In this document: piece after piece, positions 1,048 through 64,000 of the stretch
Numbering within the stretch: position 1 is the stretch's first letter
Layout: every line of letters begins with the position of its first letter
Source of the DNA: Microbacterium barkeri
GTDB taxonomy: Bacteria > Actinomycetota > Actinomycetes > Actinomycetales > Microbacteriaceae
Length of the DNA: 64,000 bases
NCBI RefSeq assembly: GCF_027921765.1
Contig: NZ_BSEJ01000006.1
Coordinates: 124,001-188,000 of the forward strand
Direction: 5' to 3'
Notes under the pieces: generated by a model
Databases searched by the model: none
Seen by the model: the letters and a program-made list of their open reading frames with translations, nothing else
What the model was told of the DNA's origin: nothing
Position numbers and translations under genes: made by a program

Positions 1048-1095
1048 GCACGCGACGACGGCCCGCCCCGATCGGGGCGGGCCGTCGTCGCGTGC
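1048..1095. terminator. Long perfect hairpin, probable bidirectional terminator
   Basis: A perfect 48-nt palindrome with 24-nt arms centred on GATC lies just after the stop of the alpha/beta hydrolase gene. It has no clear T-run, which is common in high-GC actinobacterial terminators. It would end the hydrolase transcript reading left. Confidence 0.7.
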
Positions 1096-26952: not shown

Positions 26953-26959
26953 CCACCGC

Positions 26960-26987
26960 GGAGGGCGGGCCGCAGGGCCCGCCCTCC
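26960..26987 (+). terminator. Intercistronic hairpin after the binding-protein gene
   Basis: Arms GGAGGGCGGGC and complement with a 6-nt loop lie between the binding-protein and permease genes. Such hairpins usually stabilise the 5' message or cause partial termination, giving excess binding protein. Confidence 0.6.
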
Positions 26988-27006
26988 CCCACCACCAGGA
27001 GTACCC

Positions 27007-56339: not shown

Positions 56340-56989
56340 GCCGCCGCTATCCGTCGACCATCGCGGCGCCCGTCGAGCACGAGCTCGTCGAGCGGAAGTC
56401 GCGCTTCATCGCCCAGGTCGCGCCGGTCTCCTCGCCGCAGGAGGCGGAGGAGGTCATCGCCGCCGCGCGCCGGCGCGCATGGGATGCCCGCCACCACTGC
56501 GTCGCGATGGTGACGGGCCTCCTCGGCGACCAGGCGCGCTCATCCGACGACGGCGAGCCGTCGGGCACGGCGGGGATCCCCATGCTCGAGGTGCTGCGAC
56601 GCCGCGACCTCACCGACGTCGTCGCGGTCGTCACCCGCTACTTCGGCGGGATCAAGCTCGGGGCGGGCGGGCTCGTCCGCGCGTACTCCTCTGCCGTGTC
56701 GGAGGCGCTCGACCTCGCCGCGCCCGTGCGCCGCGAGGCGCTCACGCAGGTGACGGTCGCGGTGCCGCACGGCGACGCGGGCCGCATCGACAACCTGCTG
56801 CGCGAGTGGGCCGCGCACCACGGCGCGACGCTCGGCGAGACCTCCTATGCGACGCACGCGACCTTCGAGCTCTGGACGCCGGCCGCCGAGCTCGGCCGCC
56901 TCCGCGACGACCTCGCAGCCGCCACGGCCGGCGCCCTCGCGCCGGTCATCGGCGGAGAGCGCGTCGTCGACGTGCCCGGCCGAGGCTAG
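56336..56989 (+). CDS. YigZ/IMPACT family protein (UPF0029)
   Basis: A 217-residue two-domain protein: UPF0029 at about 10-115 (ERKSRFIAQVAPVSSPQEAE, SSDDGEPSGTAGIPM, RYFGGIKLGAGGLVRAYSSA) and a C-terminal DUF1949-like domain. The family is conserved in bacteria and relates to eukaryotic IMPACT; its function is not settled. GTG at 56336 overlaps the gntR stop, so translation is coupled. The TAG stop overlaps that of the convergent epimerase gene. Confidence 0.92.
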   Translation: MSRRYPSTIAAPVEHELVERKSRFIAQVAPVSSPQEAEEVIAAARRRAWDARHHCVAMVTGLLGDQARSSDDGEPSGTAGIPMLEVLRRRDLTDVVAVVTRYFGGIKLGAGGLVRAYSSAVSEALDLAAPVRREALTQVTVAVPHGDAGRIDNLLREWAAHHGATLGETSYATHATFELWTPAAELGRLRDDLAAATAGALAPVIGGERVVDVPGRG

Positions 56990-57879
56990 CCGCGCCAGGA
57001 GTGCTGCGGCTCGAAGCCCAGCAGGCGGCGCGCCTTCTCGATCGACAGCAGGGTCTGCGTGCCCGCGACCTCGCCGCGCACCGGCACCTCGGGGAACACC
57101 TCGGCGGCGAGCTCGGCCGAGCCCCGCGACATCACCGTGTCGGCCGCCGCGATGACGAAGTTCTCCGCGCCGACGATGCCGCTCTCGACCGCGAGGCGGC
57201 AGGCGAGCGCGCCGTCGCGCGCGTCGATGTAGCCCCACGCGTTCCACGAGCGCTCGGACGGGTCGGCGTCGAACCCCGGGAAGCGCGCGTAGTCCTCGGG
57301 ATCCATCACGTTCGAGAACCGCAGGCCGAGGAAGCCCGCATCGGGGCACCAGCGGGCGAAGTGGCGGGCGAGCTCCTCGTCGACCGCCTTCCCGAGGGAG
57401 TAGGACGTCTGCGGCCGGACGGCGTACTCCTCATCGACGGGGAGGTACGGCGGAGGGGTGTCGGCGAACGACAGCCCGAGGAGGGTCTCGCTCGATGCGA
57501 ACACCACGCGGCGGATGCCGGCGAGCCGTGCCGCGGAGAAGAGGTTGTAGGTGATCGCCGTGTTGTTCGCGAAGGTCGCGGCGTCGGGCAGCAGGCCGGG
57601 CGCCGGGATCGCGGCGAGGTGCACGAGCGCGTCGACGCCGCGGCCCGACCCGACGGGAAGCGCGCCGTAGTGCTCGTCGACGTGCGTGAGCACCTGGACC
57701 GCCTGCCCGTAGTCGCTGAGGTCGGCCTGCAGGAACCGCGCCCCCTCCGGCAGCGAGGCGGGCCGCACGCGGTCGACCGCGGTCACCGCGTACCCGTGCT
57801 CGGCGAAGTGCGCGACGACCGCGCGCCCCAGCTTCCCGCTGCTCCCCGTGATGACGACCCGCTGCGCTGCTGTGCCCAC
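56986..57879 (-). CDS. NAD-dependent epimerase/dehydratase family protein
   Basis: A 297-residue extended SDR: NAD site TGSSGKLGR (11-19) and Tyr160-Lys164 (SYSLGKAVDE). RYxxNVMDPEDY and GYIDARDGALACRLA resemble uronate/UDP-sugar-type epimerases, but no substrate is clear. It follows the IclR gene by 9 nt in the operon hutH - IclR - epimerase, an unexpected place for a sugar-type enzyme. It converges with yigZ by a 4-bp overlap. Confidence 0.8.
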   Translation of the reverse strand: MGTAAQRVVITGSSGKLGRAVVAHFAEHGYAVTAVDRVRPASLPEGARFLQADLSDYGQAVQVLTHVDEHYGALPVGSGRGVDALVHLAAIPAPGLLPDAATFANNTAITYNLFSAARLAGIRRVVFASSETLLGLSFADTPPPYLPVDEEYAVRPQTSYSLGKAVDEELARHFARWCPDAGFLGLRFSNVMDPEDYARFPGFDADPSERSWNAWGYIDARDGALACRLAVESGIVGAENFVIAAADTVMSRGSAELAAEVFPEVPVRGEVAGTQTLLSIEKARRLLGFEPQHSWRG

Positions 57880-58691: not shown

Positions 58692-60257
58692 CTACGCGAG
58701 CGCCCCGATCGCCGTCTCGACCGCCGCGAGCACGCGACCCGACTGCACGTGCGCGACCGCCGCCTGGATGTCGGGCGACGTGAAGGCGTCGGTGTCGGGC
58801 GCGGCGATGTCGGTGCGGAAGAGAGCGTGCAGCGCGCGGGTGGCCGCGCCCGGCTCGCCCTCGCCGGCGGCGAGGCGGAAGTCGAGGGCGCGCGTCGCGG
58901 TGAGCAGCTCGATCGCGAGCACGCGCGCGAGGCCGTCGATCGAGCGGCGCAGCTTGCGCGCGGCCGCCCATCCCATCGCGACGTGGTCCTCCTGCATCGC
59001 CGAGGACGGGATGGAGTCGACCGAGGCGGGGACCGCGAGCCGCTTCATCTCGGAGACGATGCCCGCGGCCGTGTACTGCGCGATCATGAGGCCCGAGTCG
59101 AGCCCCGGGTCCGCGGCGAGGAACGGCGGGAGGCCGTGGTTGCGCGCGACGTCGAGGAAGCGGTCGGTCCGGCGCTCCGACATCGACGCGACGTCGGCCG
59201 CGGCGATCGCGAGGAAGTCGAGCACGTACCCGACGGGCGCCCCGTGGAAGTTGCCGTTCGACTCGACGCGCCCGTCGCGGGTCACCACCGGGTTGTCGAT
59301 CGCGCTGCCGAGCTCGATGCGGGCGACCGATGCCGCATGCGCCGCCGTGTCGCGCGCGGCGCCGTGCACCTGCGGAGCGCAGCGCAGGGAGTACGCGTCC
59401 TGCACGCGCGTGAACTCGCCGCTCACCCGCCGGGAGACGAGGCCCGAGTCGCCCAGCACCCGCGCCATGTTCGCGGCCGCGGCGGCCTGCCCGGGGTGCG
59501 GGCGCAGCTCCTGCAGATCCGCGGCGAACACGGAGTCGGTCCCGCGGAGCGCCTCGACGCTCGCGGCGGCCGCGACGTCGGCCACGCGCAGGAGCGCCTC
59601 GAGGTCGTGCAGCGCGAGCAGGAGCGTGCCGAGCATCCCGTCGGTGCCGTTGATGAGGGCGAGGCCCTCCTTCTCCTCCAGCACGACGGGGGCGATGCCC
59701 GCCTCCTCGAGGGCATCGCCCGCGCCGCGCAGCTCGCCGGCCGCATCGCGCACGGTGCCCTCGCCCATGATGGCGAGGGCGCAGTGCGCGAGCGGCGACA
59801 GGTCGCCCGAGCAGCCGAGCGAGCCGTACTCGTGCACGACGGGCGTGAGCCCTGCGTTGAGCACCTGCGCGTAGGTCTCCGCGACGATCGGGCGAGCGCC
59901 CGTGCGGCCCGTCGCGAGGGTGTCGAGACGCAGGAGCATGAGCGCGCGGACCACCTCGCGCTCGACCTCCTCGCCGGTTCCGGCGGCGTGCGATCGCACG
60001 AGGCTGCGCTGCAGCTGCCGGCGCTTCTCGCGCGGGATCTGCACGGTGGCGAGGGCGCCGAAGCCCGTCGAGACGCCGTAGTGCGGGAGCGCGTCGTGTG
60101 CGAGGTCGTCGATGAGCGCGCGGCTCTCCGCCATGTCGCGGAGCGCCTGCTCCGAGAGATGGACGGGCGCGCCGTCTCGGGCCACGGCGACGACGTCGTC
60201 CGGGCGGAGGCCCGCGGAGCCGAGCGAGATGGAGCGGAGGGCGTGCGAGGTGGTCAT
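58692..60257 (-). CDS. hutH: Histidine ammonia-lyase
   Basis: A 521-residue aromatic amino acid lyase that converts histidine to urocanate. The active-site Tyr60 is in HYGVSTGFGA. The MIO prosthetic group normally forms from Ala-Ser-Gly; here it reads Cys149-Ser150-Gly151 in GSLGCSGDLSPLAH, a variant I believe is known in actinobacteria but cannot check. ATG at 60257 fits the family N-terminus, with GGAGGG directly before it, closer than usual. It is divergent from hutG, with two hut operators between. Confidence 0.93.
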   Translation of the reverse strand: MTTSHALRSISLGSAGLRPDDVVAVARDGAPVHLSEQALRDMAESRALIDDLAHDALPHYGVSTGFGALATVQIPREKRRQLQRSLVRSHAAGTGEEVEREVVRALMLLRLDTLATGRTGARPIVAETYAQVLNAGLTPVVHEYGSLGCSGDLSPLAHCALAIMGEGTVRDAAGELRGAGDALEEAGIAPVVLEEKEGLALINGTDGMLGTLLLALHDLEALLRVADVAAAASVEALRGTDSVFAADLQELRPHPGQAAAAANMARVLGDSGLVSRRVSGEFTRVQDAYSLRCAPQVHGAARDTAAHAASVARIELGSAIDNPVVTRDGRVESNGNFHGAPVGYVLDFLAIAAADVASMSERRTDRFLDVARNHGLPPFLAADPGLDSGLMIAQYTAAGIVSEMKRLAVPASVDSIPSSAMQEDHVAMGWAAARKLRRSIDGLARVLAIELLTATRALDFRLAAGEGEPGAATRALHALFRTDIAAPDTDAFTSPDIQAAVAHVQSGRVLAAVETAIGALA

Positions 60258-60310
60258 CCCTCCATGGAACGTCACGTCCACCCCGGCGGACAGCACCGCG
60301 GGCCTCCTGC

Positions 60311-60328
60311 CGTCTGGGATCCCAGACG
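60311..60328. promoter_or_regulatory. hut operator, copy 1 (18-bp perfect palindrome)
   Basis: CGTCTGGGATCCCAGACG is perfectly palindromic and lies 53 bp upstream of hutH. Its centre is 22 bp from copy 2, two helical turns, so two regulator dimers could bind the same face. Confidence 0.75.
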
Positions 60329-60334
60329 ATGCGC

Positions 60335-60348
60335 TCTGGGATCCCAGA
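60335..60348. promoter_or_regulatory. hut operator, copy 2
   Basis: TCTGGGATCCCAGA is a perfect 14-bp palindrome, 55 bp upstream of hutG, sharing its core with copy 1 and with the site at 62825. Confidence 0.75.
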
Positions 60349-60403
60349 CGACGATGTGCGGGGCGGCGGTTCGCCCCGCACCGCCCGTGGGTACCGTGAC
60401 GCC

Positions 60404-61327
60404 ATGAGCGATCAGCCCTCCCCTGCCCTCTCGCACGATCCCCTCTGGCCGCGCACGGGCGGATGGCCGCGCCCCGACGGCGCGGAGGCGGACGCCGCCC
60501 TCATCGGGCTCCCGACGCGGCGCACCTCGCTCTCGCCGACGCACGCGGACGCCACGCCATCGGCGGTGCGCGACGCGCTGCGCCGCTACTCGGCCCTCGC
60601 GCACGTGGAGGGCAGGGGCGCCGTCGACCTCGACGAGGCGCTGCGCATCGTCGACGCGGGCGACATCGCCGAGCCCGACCACGGCCACGATGAGGACGCC
60701 GCCGTCGCGGCCGTCCGCGCGCTCGCGGAGCGCGCACGGCTCGTCATCGCGCTGGGCGGCGACAACGCGGCGACGGTCCCCGCGGCGCTCGGCGCGTGGG
60801 GCGACGGCATCGCGTCGGCCGGCCTCATCACCTTCGACGCGCATCACGACCTGCGCGACGGGATCAGCAACGGCTCCCCCGTCCGGCGCCTCATCGAGGC
60901 AGGGCTCGACGGGCGGCGCGTCGTGCAGATCGGCATCGCCGACTTCGCGAACTCGCTCGCGTACGCGCGGAGGGCGCAGGAGCTCGGGATCACCGTCATC
61001 CCGCGCGATGCCCTGCACGATCGCCCGATCGCCGACGTCGTCGACGAGGCGCTCGCGATCGCGGGCGCGGGCGGCGGCGCGGTCCACGTCGACGTCGACG
61101 TCGACATCTGCGACCGCGCGGTCGCTCCCGCCTGCCCGGCCTCCGTGCCCGGCGGCCTCTCGGCCGCCGAGCTGCGCAGGGCCGTCCGACGCGTCACGCG
61201 CGACCCCCGCGTGCGATCGCTCGACCTCACCGAGGTCGATGCGACCGCGGACACCCCCGACGGGCGCACCGTGCGCCTCGTCGCGACGCTCGTCCTGGAG
61301 GCGCTCGCGGGCGTCGCCGGACGCTAG
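60404..61327 (+). CDS. hutG: Formimidoylglutamase (arginase superfamily)
   Basis: A 307-residue ureohydrolase. The Mn-binding segments are LGGDNAAT (117-124, Asn where arginase has His), FDAHHDLRD (144-152) and [11 protein letters not shown]. It hydrolyses N-formimidoyl-glutamate to glutamate and formamide. ATG 60404. It is the first gene of the right-hand hut unit and probably is cotranscribed with the permease 26 bp downstream. Confidence 0.88.
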
Positions 61328-61353
61328 CCCGACCGAGGAGAATGGAGACGACG

Positions 61354-62808
61354 ATGTCTGACACCTCTGCCACGCACGCGCCCGCCGCGACCGCTTCCGC
61401 GCACACCCTCCGCCGCGGGCTCTCCGCCCGGCACGTGCGCTTCATGGCGCTCGGCTCCGCGATCGGGACCGGCCTCTTCTACGGGTCGTCCGCGGCCATC
61501 CAGTCCGCGGGACCCGCCGTGCTCCTCGCGTACATCGTCGGCGGCGCCGCCGTCTTCATGGTGATGCGCGCGCTCGGCGAGATGGCGGTCCGCCATCCCG
61601 TCGCGGGCTCCTTCGGCCAGTACGCCGCCCGCTACCTCGGCCCGCTCGCGGGCTTCGTGACGGGATGGACGTACGCGTTCGAGATGGTGATCGTGTGCCT
61701 CGCCGACGTGACGGCGTTCGGCATCTACATGGGCTTCTGGTTCCCCGACGTGCCGCGCTGGATCTGGGTGCTCTCGATCATCCTCTTCATCGGCGCGCTC
61801 AACCTGCTGAGCGTGAAGGTGTTCGGAGAGCTCGAGTTCTGGTTCTCGCTCGTCAAGGTCTCGGCGATCATCGCGATGATCGTGGGCGGCATCGCCATCA
61901 TCACGTTCGGGCTCGGCAACCAGGAGGAGAACGCCTCCGGCATCGCGAACCTGTGGAGCCACGGCGGCTTCGCCCCCGAGGGCTTCGGCGGGCTCATCGC
62001 GAGCCTCGCGGTCGTCATGTTCGCGTTCGGCGGCATCGAGATCATCGGCGTCACGGCCGGAGAGGCCCAGGATCCCAAGCGCGTGCTGCCGCAGGCGATC
62101 AACACCGTGCCGCTGCGCATCCTCCTCTTCTACGTGCTCACGCTCGGGGTCATCATGATGCTCGTGCCGTGGACGTCGATCACGGGCGAGGCGAGCCCCT
62201 TCGTCTCGATCTTCACGACCCTCGGGATCCCGTTCGCGCCGCACCTCCTCAACGCCGTCGTCATCACGGCCGCCGTCTCGGCCATCAACTCCGACATCTT
62301 CGGCGCGGGTCGCATGATGTTCGGCCTCGCGCAGCAGGGGCAGGCGCCCGCGATCTTCCGGAAGACCTCCCGCCAGGGTGTCCCGATCTTCCCTGTCCTC
62401 ATCCTCATGGCGACGCTGCTCGTCGGCGTCGTCCTCAACGCGGTGATCCCCGAGCAGGCGTTCCTCCTCATCGCATCGGTCGCGACGTTCGCCACGGTGT
62501 GGGTGTGGCTCATGATCCTGCTGTCGCACGTGCGCATGAAGCACGCGATCGCGCGGGAGGGCCGGCTTCCGTCGGAGTTCCCCGTCCCGCTCTGGCCGGC
62601 GGCCTCCTACGCGGCGATCGCCTTCGTGCTGTTCGTCGTCGTCGTGCTCGGCATCGTGCCCGACACGCGGCCCGCGCTCATGGTGGGCGCGGTGTGGCTG
62701 GCCGTCCTCTGGCTGGCGTACACGCTGTTCGTCCGCGAGCAGGGGCGATCGGCGCCCGACCTCGAGGACGCGACAGCGCCCATCCCGCTGCCTCCTCGAG
62801 CGCCGTGA
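61354..62808 (+). CDS. Amino acid permease, probable histidine transporter
   Basis: A 484-residue APC-family permease with about 12 helices. [20 protein letters not shown] (about 32-51) is the substrate/cation-binding loop of helix 1, and the length is usual for the HutT/ProY branch. It lies between hutG and hutU, so histidine is the inferred substrate. ATG 61354 has GGAG 6 nt upstream; ATG 61342 is too close to its Shine-Dalgarno. Confidence 0.88.
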
Positions 62809-62813
62809 CGCGA

Positions 62814-62853
62814 CGCGACGGCCCCGTCTGGGATTCCAGACGGGGCCGTCGCG
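62814..62853 (+). terminator. Terminator hairpin with an embedded hut operator motif
   Basis: Perfect 18-nt arms (CGCGACGGCCCCGTCTGG and complement) with loop GATT follow the permease gene. The inner part reads CGTCTGGGATTCCAGACG (62825-62842), the same as the hut operators at 60311 and 60335 apart from one central base. It can therefore act as terminator, as operator for hutU, or both. Confidence 0.75.
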
Positions 62854-62925
62854 TTCCCCGTTGTCGCGCGGGCCGTCGCGGGATTGGATCGAGGCAGACC
62901 CCGGCTCGAGAGAGAGGCCCCGACG

Positions 62926-64000
62926 ATGACGCTCCCCGGCGCACGCCCCGTCCGCGCACAGCGCGGCACCACCCTGACGGCGAAGAGCTGGCAGACCGAA
63001 GCCCCGCTGCGCATGCTGCACAACAACCTCGACCCCGAGGTCGCCGAGCGGCCCGACGACCTCGTCGTCTACGGCGGAACCGGGCGCGCCGCGCGCAACT
63101 GGGAGGCGTTCGACGCGATCACGGCGGCGCTCACCGATCTCGAGGATGACGAGACGCTTCTCGTGCAGTCCGGCAAGCCGGTCGGCATCTTCCGCACGAA
63201 CCCGTGGGCGCCGCGCGTGCTCATCGCGAACTCGCACCTCGTCGGCGACTGGGCGACGTGGCCCGAGTTCCGCCGTCTCGAGGCCGAGGGGCTCACGATG
63301 TACGGGCAGATGACGGCCGGCTCCTGGATCTACATCGGCACGCAGGGCATCCTGCAGGGCACGTTCGAGACGTTCGCCGCGGTCGCCCGCAAGCGCTTCG
63401 GCGGGACGCTCGCCGGAACGCTCACGCTCACGGGAGGCTGCGGCGGGATGGGCGGCGCTCAGCCGCTCGCGGTCACCCTCAACGAGGGCGTCTGCCTCGT
63501 CGTCGACGTCGACGAGACGCGTCTGCGCCGTCGCGTCGGCAAGCGCTACCTCGACCGCGTCGAGGCCGACCTCGACACCGCCGTCGCGGTCGCCCTCGAG
63601 GCGAAGGAGCAGCGCCGCGCGCTCTCGATCGGCGTCGTCGGCAACGCGGCCGAGGTCTTCCCCGAGCTCCTGCGCCGCGGCGTCGCGATCGACATCGTCA
63701 CCGACCAGACCTCCGCGCACGACCCGCTGTCGTACCTGCCCGTCGGCATGTCCGTCGAGGAGTGGCACGACGCCGCCGCTGCCGACCCCGAGGGCTTCAC
63801 CGAGCGCGCCCGCGCATCGATGGCGGCCCAGGTCGAGGCGATGGTGGGGTTCCAGGATGCGGGTGCCGAGGTCTTCGACTACGGCAACTCCATCCGAGAC
63901 GAGGCCCGCCAGGCCGGGTACGAGCGCGCGTTCGCCTTCCCCGGGTTCGTGCCGGCCTACATCCGCCCGCTCTTCTGCGAGGGTCTCGGCCCGTTCCGCT
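62926..64000 (+). CDS. hutU: Urocanate hydratase, N-terminal part (gene cut by window edge)
   Basis: 358 residues of the roughly 550-residue enzyme are visible; the frame runs off the right edge open. [10 protein letters not shown] (50-59), QSGKPVG (81-87) and NAD-binding [10 protein letters not shown] (170-179) are diagnostic. It converts urocanate to imidazolonepropionate using NAD as electrophile. ATG 62926 lies 72 bp after the hairpin/operator, so it probably has its own promoter. Confidence 0.95.

Follow-up and report, generated by a model that had tools for sequence, protein, structure and literature searches.

How is hutU switched on in a hut locus where it lies apart from hutH, behind an amino acid permease gene and a hairpin whose tip carries the same palindrome as the hutH promoter region? 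We analyzed this locus in the window, by which we mean the whole 64-kb stretch of Microbacterium barkeri DNA shown above; positions refer to it unless the contig is named. Genes were called by a codon-usage script, and the features are collected in Table 1. The genes hutR and hutH run leftwards, followed on the other side by a hutG-like gene, the amino acid permease gene, hutU, and hutI, which run rightwards. The best NCBIfam match of hutR was the PcaR/PcaU/PobR subfamily, with a score below the cut-off, and its named relatives come from Microbacterium sp. Root53 (86% identity) and M. hominis (55%). TIGR01227 (hutG) was the top NCBIfam match of the hutG-like gene, also below the cut-off. For hutH we took the ATG at 60257 as the start; automatic gene calls extend the gene to GTG 60296, where it could begin instead. 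The permease probably serves histidine uptake. As in Corynebacterium resistens, an IclR-type regulator is encoded in the hut cluster, here adjoining hutH, and all corynebacterial hut clusters compared in the accessible text of PMC3350403 contain hutR.

Table 1. Features of the hut locus (window coordinates unless the contig is named)
Feature	Position	Strand	Basis or remark
hutR, IclR-type regulator, 263 aa	57889..58680	-	IclR_C + HTH_IclR (Pfam)
hutH, histidine ammonia-lyase	58692..60257	-	TIGR01225 above cut-off; ATG 62.5 bp from box 1 centre
Predicted hutH -10, TTCCAT	60264..60269	-	begins 50.5 bp from box 1 centre, the distance seen in relatives of the genus
HutR box 1, TCTGGGATCCCAGA	60313..60326	none	assigned to hutH
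HutR box 2, TCTGGGATCCCAGA	60335..60348	none	assigned to hutG
Predicted hutG -10, TACCGT	60392..60397	+	begins 50.5 bp from box 2 centre; weaker, not TNNNAT
hutG-like formimidoylglutamase, predicted leaderless	60404..61327	+	Arginase family (Pfam); ATG 62.5 bp from box 2 centre
Amino acid permease	61354..62808	+	AA_permease (Pfam)
Hairpin, 19-bp arms, GATT loop, terminator-like	62813..62854	+	starts at fifth base after permease stop
HutR box 3, TCTGGGATTCCAGA, hairpin apex	62827..62840	none	centre 62833.5; assigned to hutU
Predicted hutU -35, TTGTCG	62861..62866	+	17-bp spacer to -10
Predicted hutU -10, TTGGAT	62884..62889	+	predicted start 62896
Possible hutU ribosome-binding stretch, GAGAGAGAGG, purine-rich	62908..62917	+	sequence
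hutU, urocanate hydratase	62926..64000, past the window to contig 188596	+	ATG 62926; TIGR01228 above cut-off
hutI	contig 188598-189779, directly after hutU	+	TIGR01224 above cut-off

The palindrome TCTGGNNNNCCAGA occurs three times in the window, where 0.03 copies are expected, and an exact-match scan of the whole 3.5-Mb genome placed all copies in the hut locus, with no fourth elsewhere. The looser form TCTGNNATNNCAGA returned the identical three exact copies genome-wide, plus 14 sites with one mismatch. Boxes 1 and 2 lie 22 bp apart, centre to centre, in the divergent hutH/hutG promoter region, and box 3 has no partner 22 bp away. The three sites, with their flanks, and the 22-bp distance were present as a first-pass annotation had described them. 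The same annotation had attributed the motif to HutR of C. glutamicum; the motif printed in Table 1 of PMC8222616, GTCTGWWATWCCAGAC, is that of C. resistens. Boxes 1 and 3 match this motif at all 13 defined non-W positions; its W positions are G, G, and C here (T in box 3). Box 2 deviates from the motif at its first base. The distance between the divergent palindromes fits the spacing of 18-22 nt given for tandem IclR-family sites in the accessible text of PMC8222616; unlike those, the hutU site is single. Palindromes of the form (G)TCTG-N6-CAGA(C) stand upstream of hut genes, and we infer from the sequence and from the rigid promoter geometry described below that the motif serves HutR, an IclR-type regulator, as its binding box.

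The distance between box and promoter was first spotted as a 50.5-bp spacing in the window, and the relatives then fixed it independently. A first set comprised 41 loci, three of them repeats, and boxes with at most two mismatches were accepted. Thirty-six of these loci carried hutH (not found in L043, L054, L055, L056, and L127), a box was present at 28 of the 36 genes, and at 26 of the 28 the hutH ATG lay exactly 62.5 bp from the box centre. The box without a start at exactly that distance was seen in L061 and L130; the eight hutH genes that had no box at this threshold belong to L044, L053, L057, L124, L125, L126, L132, and L133, where L132 and L133 are repeat loci of L057 and L044. The hutH ATG of Root53 and M. 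hominis likewise lies at 62.5 bp. A second, additional set consisted of 60 regions upstream of hutR homologues (L165-L224), taken as the next 60 rows of the longer homologue list after the earlier loci, with genome G063 skipped as already included. Here hutH was found in 57 of the 60 regions and the box in exactly these 57 (56 exact, one with a single mismatch); the three regions without a box (genomes G169, G173, and G156) had no hutH in the examined stretch either. A hexamer TNNNAT, mostly TGGAAT, started exactly 50.5 bp from the box centre in 54 of the 57, and the ATG, in an open frame with hutH in every case (57/57), was located at exactly 62.5 bp in 52, the remaining five being off by one base. 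The genus consensus reads TGTCTGGNATNNCAGACACAGGATGCCA, then TGGAAT, then ATG six bases on. These fixed distances of hexamer and ATG indicate that hutH is probably leaderless and that HutR is probably an activator acting from -62.5.

In the window, the ATG codons of hutH and hutG are found at the genus distance from the left and the right box, respectively, and the hutU hexamer at +50.5; the hutG hexamer is atypical. The permease genes of genomes G080 (a homologue of about 70% identity with its own HutR-type box), G100, and G165 show a box and TNNNAT at 50.5 bp, followed by a leader. The hutH promoters of the genus additionally contain a conserved half-site, ACAGGATGCCA, right after the HutR box, an arrangement similar to the sites with three boxes that have been predicted for other members of the IclR family; the half-site is absent from the boxes of the window, box 3 included. 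Between box 2 and the hutG start, a GC-rich palindrome with 10-bp arms, GTGCGGGGCG...CGCCCCGCAC, covers the expected -35 region (60356-60381).

The first-pass annotation had proposed that the third site also serves as the regulator site for hutU, with a hutU promoter downstream. TTGGAT at 62884 is the only TNNNAT that starts within 62841-62920, and its offset from the centre of box 3 is exactly 50.5 bp; TNNNAT occupies 0.5% of intergenic positions in the background. The -35-like TTGTCG precedes it by 17 bp. At 12 of the 14 one-mismatch genome sites, examined in both directions, no TNNNAT was found at 50.5 bp (0 of 24 tests). Because a -10-like hexamer sits at the box-promoter distance conserved at hutH in the genus, together with a -35-like element, box 3 is very probably the regulator box of hutU, and both parts of the proposal hold at the level of prediction. 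A consensus promoter scan, which accepts only -10 elements with A as the second base, returned no sigma-70-type site; the predicted promoters were missed because their -10 elements are mostly TNNNAT without this A. The reading of box 3 as operator of a hutU promoter is strongly supported by these sequence features.

Box 3 occupies the top of a hairpin of 19 perfect pairs per arm. The presence of a hairpin with the motif on top in front of hutU agrees with the first-pass annotation, which had put the arms slightly shorter, at 18 bp. Bases 62811-62856 fold at -45.8 kcal/mol, and the region 62800-62880 reached z = -6.19 against shuffles. The arms do extend beyond the motif, as had been stated: with one mismatch allowed, symmetry continues for 14 bp outside the 14-mer, and for at most 2 bp at 10 further boxes that adjoin hut or permease genes. 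More symmetry was seen at sites in L075, L077, and L079, but these loci showed no hut homologue and the sites lack the promoter hexamer.

The hairpin is GC-rich, stable, and placed directly after a stop codon, as are canonical intrinsic terminators. The bases that follow, TCCCCGTTGT, form no U-tract, and a scan for U-tract terminators does not list it; it is therefore not classed as a canonical intrinsic terminator, although it may work like one. In 187 kb of the contig, we counted 33 intergenic hairpins with arms of at least 11 bp. Of these, 21 follow a stop codon at a distance of at most 35 bases; such zones make up 14.5% of intergenic bases. Tails were read in the direction of the gene for 20 hairpins located 1-35 bases past a stop: one had six T in eight bases and 19, including the hairpin before hutU, had 0-3. 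This local class of post-stop hairpins probably marks transcript ends, with the permease-hutU hairpin as a normal member, and it is plausible that the latter ends permease transcripts. How well hairpins without U-tracts terminate in actinobacteria is debated, which is why we treat termination at this site as presumptive. GC-rich hairpins whose arms reach 22 bp, and which almost always lack a T-rich tail, are enriched directly after stops in the contig around the window (for example, at window 1048-1095), and such hairpins are possibly a genome-wide style of transcript end.

On this basis, we propose three transcription units, hutH leftwards and hutG-permease and hutU-hutI rightwards, each with a HutR box 62.5 bp upstream of its predicted start. 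HutR would activate them from these upstream boxes in the presence of histidine or one of its breakdown products, and the hairpin, with box 3 in its tip directly after the permease stop, would most likely end (or trim) the hutG-permease transcript. A single 42-bp element would then close one transcription unit as RNA and open the next as DNA. We regard this arrangement of three HutR-activated units, with box 3 nested in the hairpin ending the hutG-permease transcript, as rather probable as a whole; the dual use of one element as 3'-end hairpin and activator site is likely.

The hairpin could instead be a processing or stability element within a single hutG-permease-hutU-hutI operon, with the box and the hutU promoter being real and forming an internal, HutR-driven promoter. 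The missing U-tract speaks for this, as do the start of the hairpin at the fifth base past the stop, where a translating ribosome may interfere, and the fact that all of these genes suit one pathway. However, like hairpins are enriched after stops in the contig, and one of them (26958-26989) is also followed, 66 bp on, by a gene start on its own strand, so that we consider a single operon possible, if rather unlikely.

It had also been suggested that the element couples termination with initiation. In that case, HutR bound to the hairpin DNA would block the elongating polymerase, or transcription from upstream would displace HutR, and termination and hutU initiation would interact. Box and hairpin do physically overlap within the 42 bp; however, a switch is not required if, as predicted, both units answer to one regulator, and we hold such a switch to be very improbable. 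Similarly, it is improbable that HutR on the hairpin DNA acts as a conditional boundary which activates hutU-hutI while stopping polymerase arriving from the permease, and so sets both ends. No result supports more than shared DNA between the two functions. In Bacillus subtilis, the hut terminator is controlled by HutP, which binds RNA and prevents termination. The present locus resembles that system by analogy, as a hut operon with an intergenic hairpin; in contrast to HutP, the regulator of the window is a predicted DNA-binding activator, and none of our results points to regulation of the hairpin.

That the motif is merely the chance apex of an ordinary 3'-end hairpin, unused by HutR, is hardly credible: every hairpin is palindromic, and GATC loops occur in 2 of 20 comparable hairpins, but, judged by stem composition, a TCTGG apex has a rough chance of about 5e-4, and one with a 4-base NATN loop a chance about ten times lower, and the hairpin before hutU is the only one of the 21 post-stop hairpins with a TCTGG apex (0 of the 20 others), standing ahead of a hut gene and with the promoter hexamer exactly where the conserved spacing puts it.

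The likely dual use of box 3 raises the question of how it arose. Among the best matches listed from 366 genomes of the genus, no other spans the permease-hutU junction, and conservation therefore cannot test the fusion of box and hairpin. A permease gene and a hutU that match separately may still adjoin in rows beyond this listing. In the examined loci where hutR faces hutH, hutU follows closely after hutH, so that a separate hutU promoter is not needed there. Genomes G091 and G305 contain a similar permease gene (85% and 80% identical at the DNA level along roughly 580 bases), which adjoins a homologue of the dehydrogenase-like gene flanking hutR in the window (56986-57879; loci L136 and L137); hut genes were not found in the examined permease stretches of these two genomes. 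Since the two genes are direct neighbors there, the hutR-hutH-hutG block was probably inserted in our locus or lost in theirs. In G100 and G165, the permease has its HutR box about 40 bp away from a hairpin that immediately follows a tRNA-Met gene; in the locus of the window, the two elements are merged. It is likely that hutU, separated from hutH, ended up downstream of the permease gene and acquired its activator site inside a hairpin at that place. A plasmid search returned pieces of the permease gene or of hutU and a few short matches, and no record covered 80% of the query.

Other candidate sites turned up in the relatives. Sites of the form TCTGGTATACCAGA in L065, L075, and L079 were rejected as further HutR boxes, as TNNNAT is absent at +50.5 on either side; lacking a hexamer at the HutR distance, they probably belong to another regulator. 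In L075 (1501-1514; genome G242), TCTGGTATACCAGA lies inside a longer palindrome, GCACGATTCTGGTATACCAGAATCGTGC. The site in L070 (1501-1514; genome G199) has the box TCTGGTATCCCAGA, TGGAAT at +50.5, and GTG at +62.5, and is possibly a further HutR target; this 3-kb locus showed no homologue of hutR, hutH, hutG, the permease, or hutU.

For C. resistens HutR, the accessible text of PMC8222616 mentions no hairpin-embedded box, and among the open-licence papers listed on operators in or over terminators and on leaderless or IclR/hut regulation, titles and abstract openings describe no such arrangement. If the proposal is true, it illustrates how a relocated gene, here hutU behind the permease, can have an activator site to itself within a 3'-end hairpin and without any additional DNA. 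Of wider use is the fixed distance between box and start: it leads one to expect that hutH transcripts are leaderless and that HutR acts as an activator throughout the genus.
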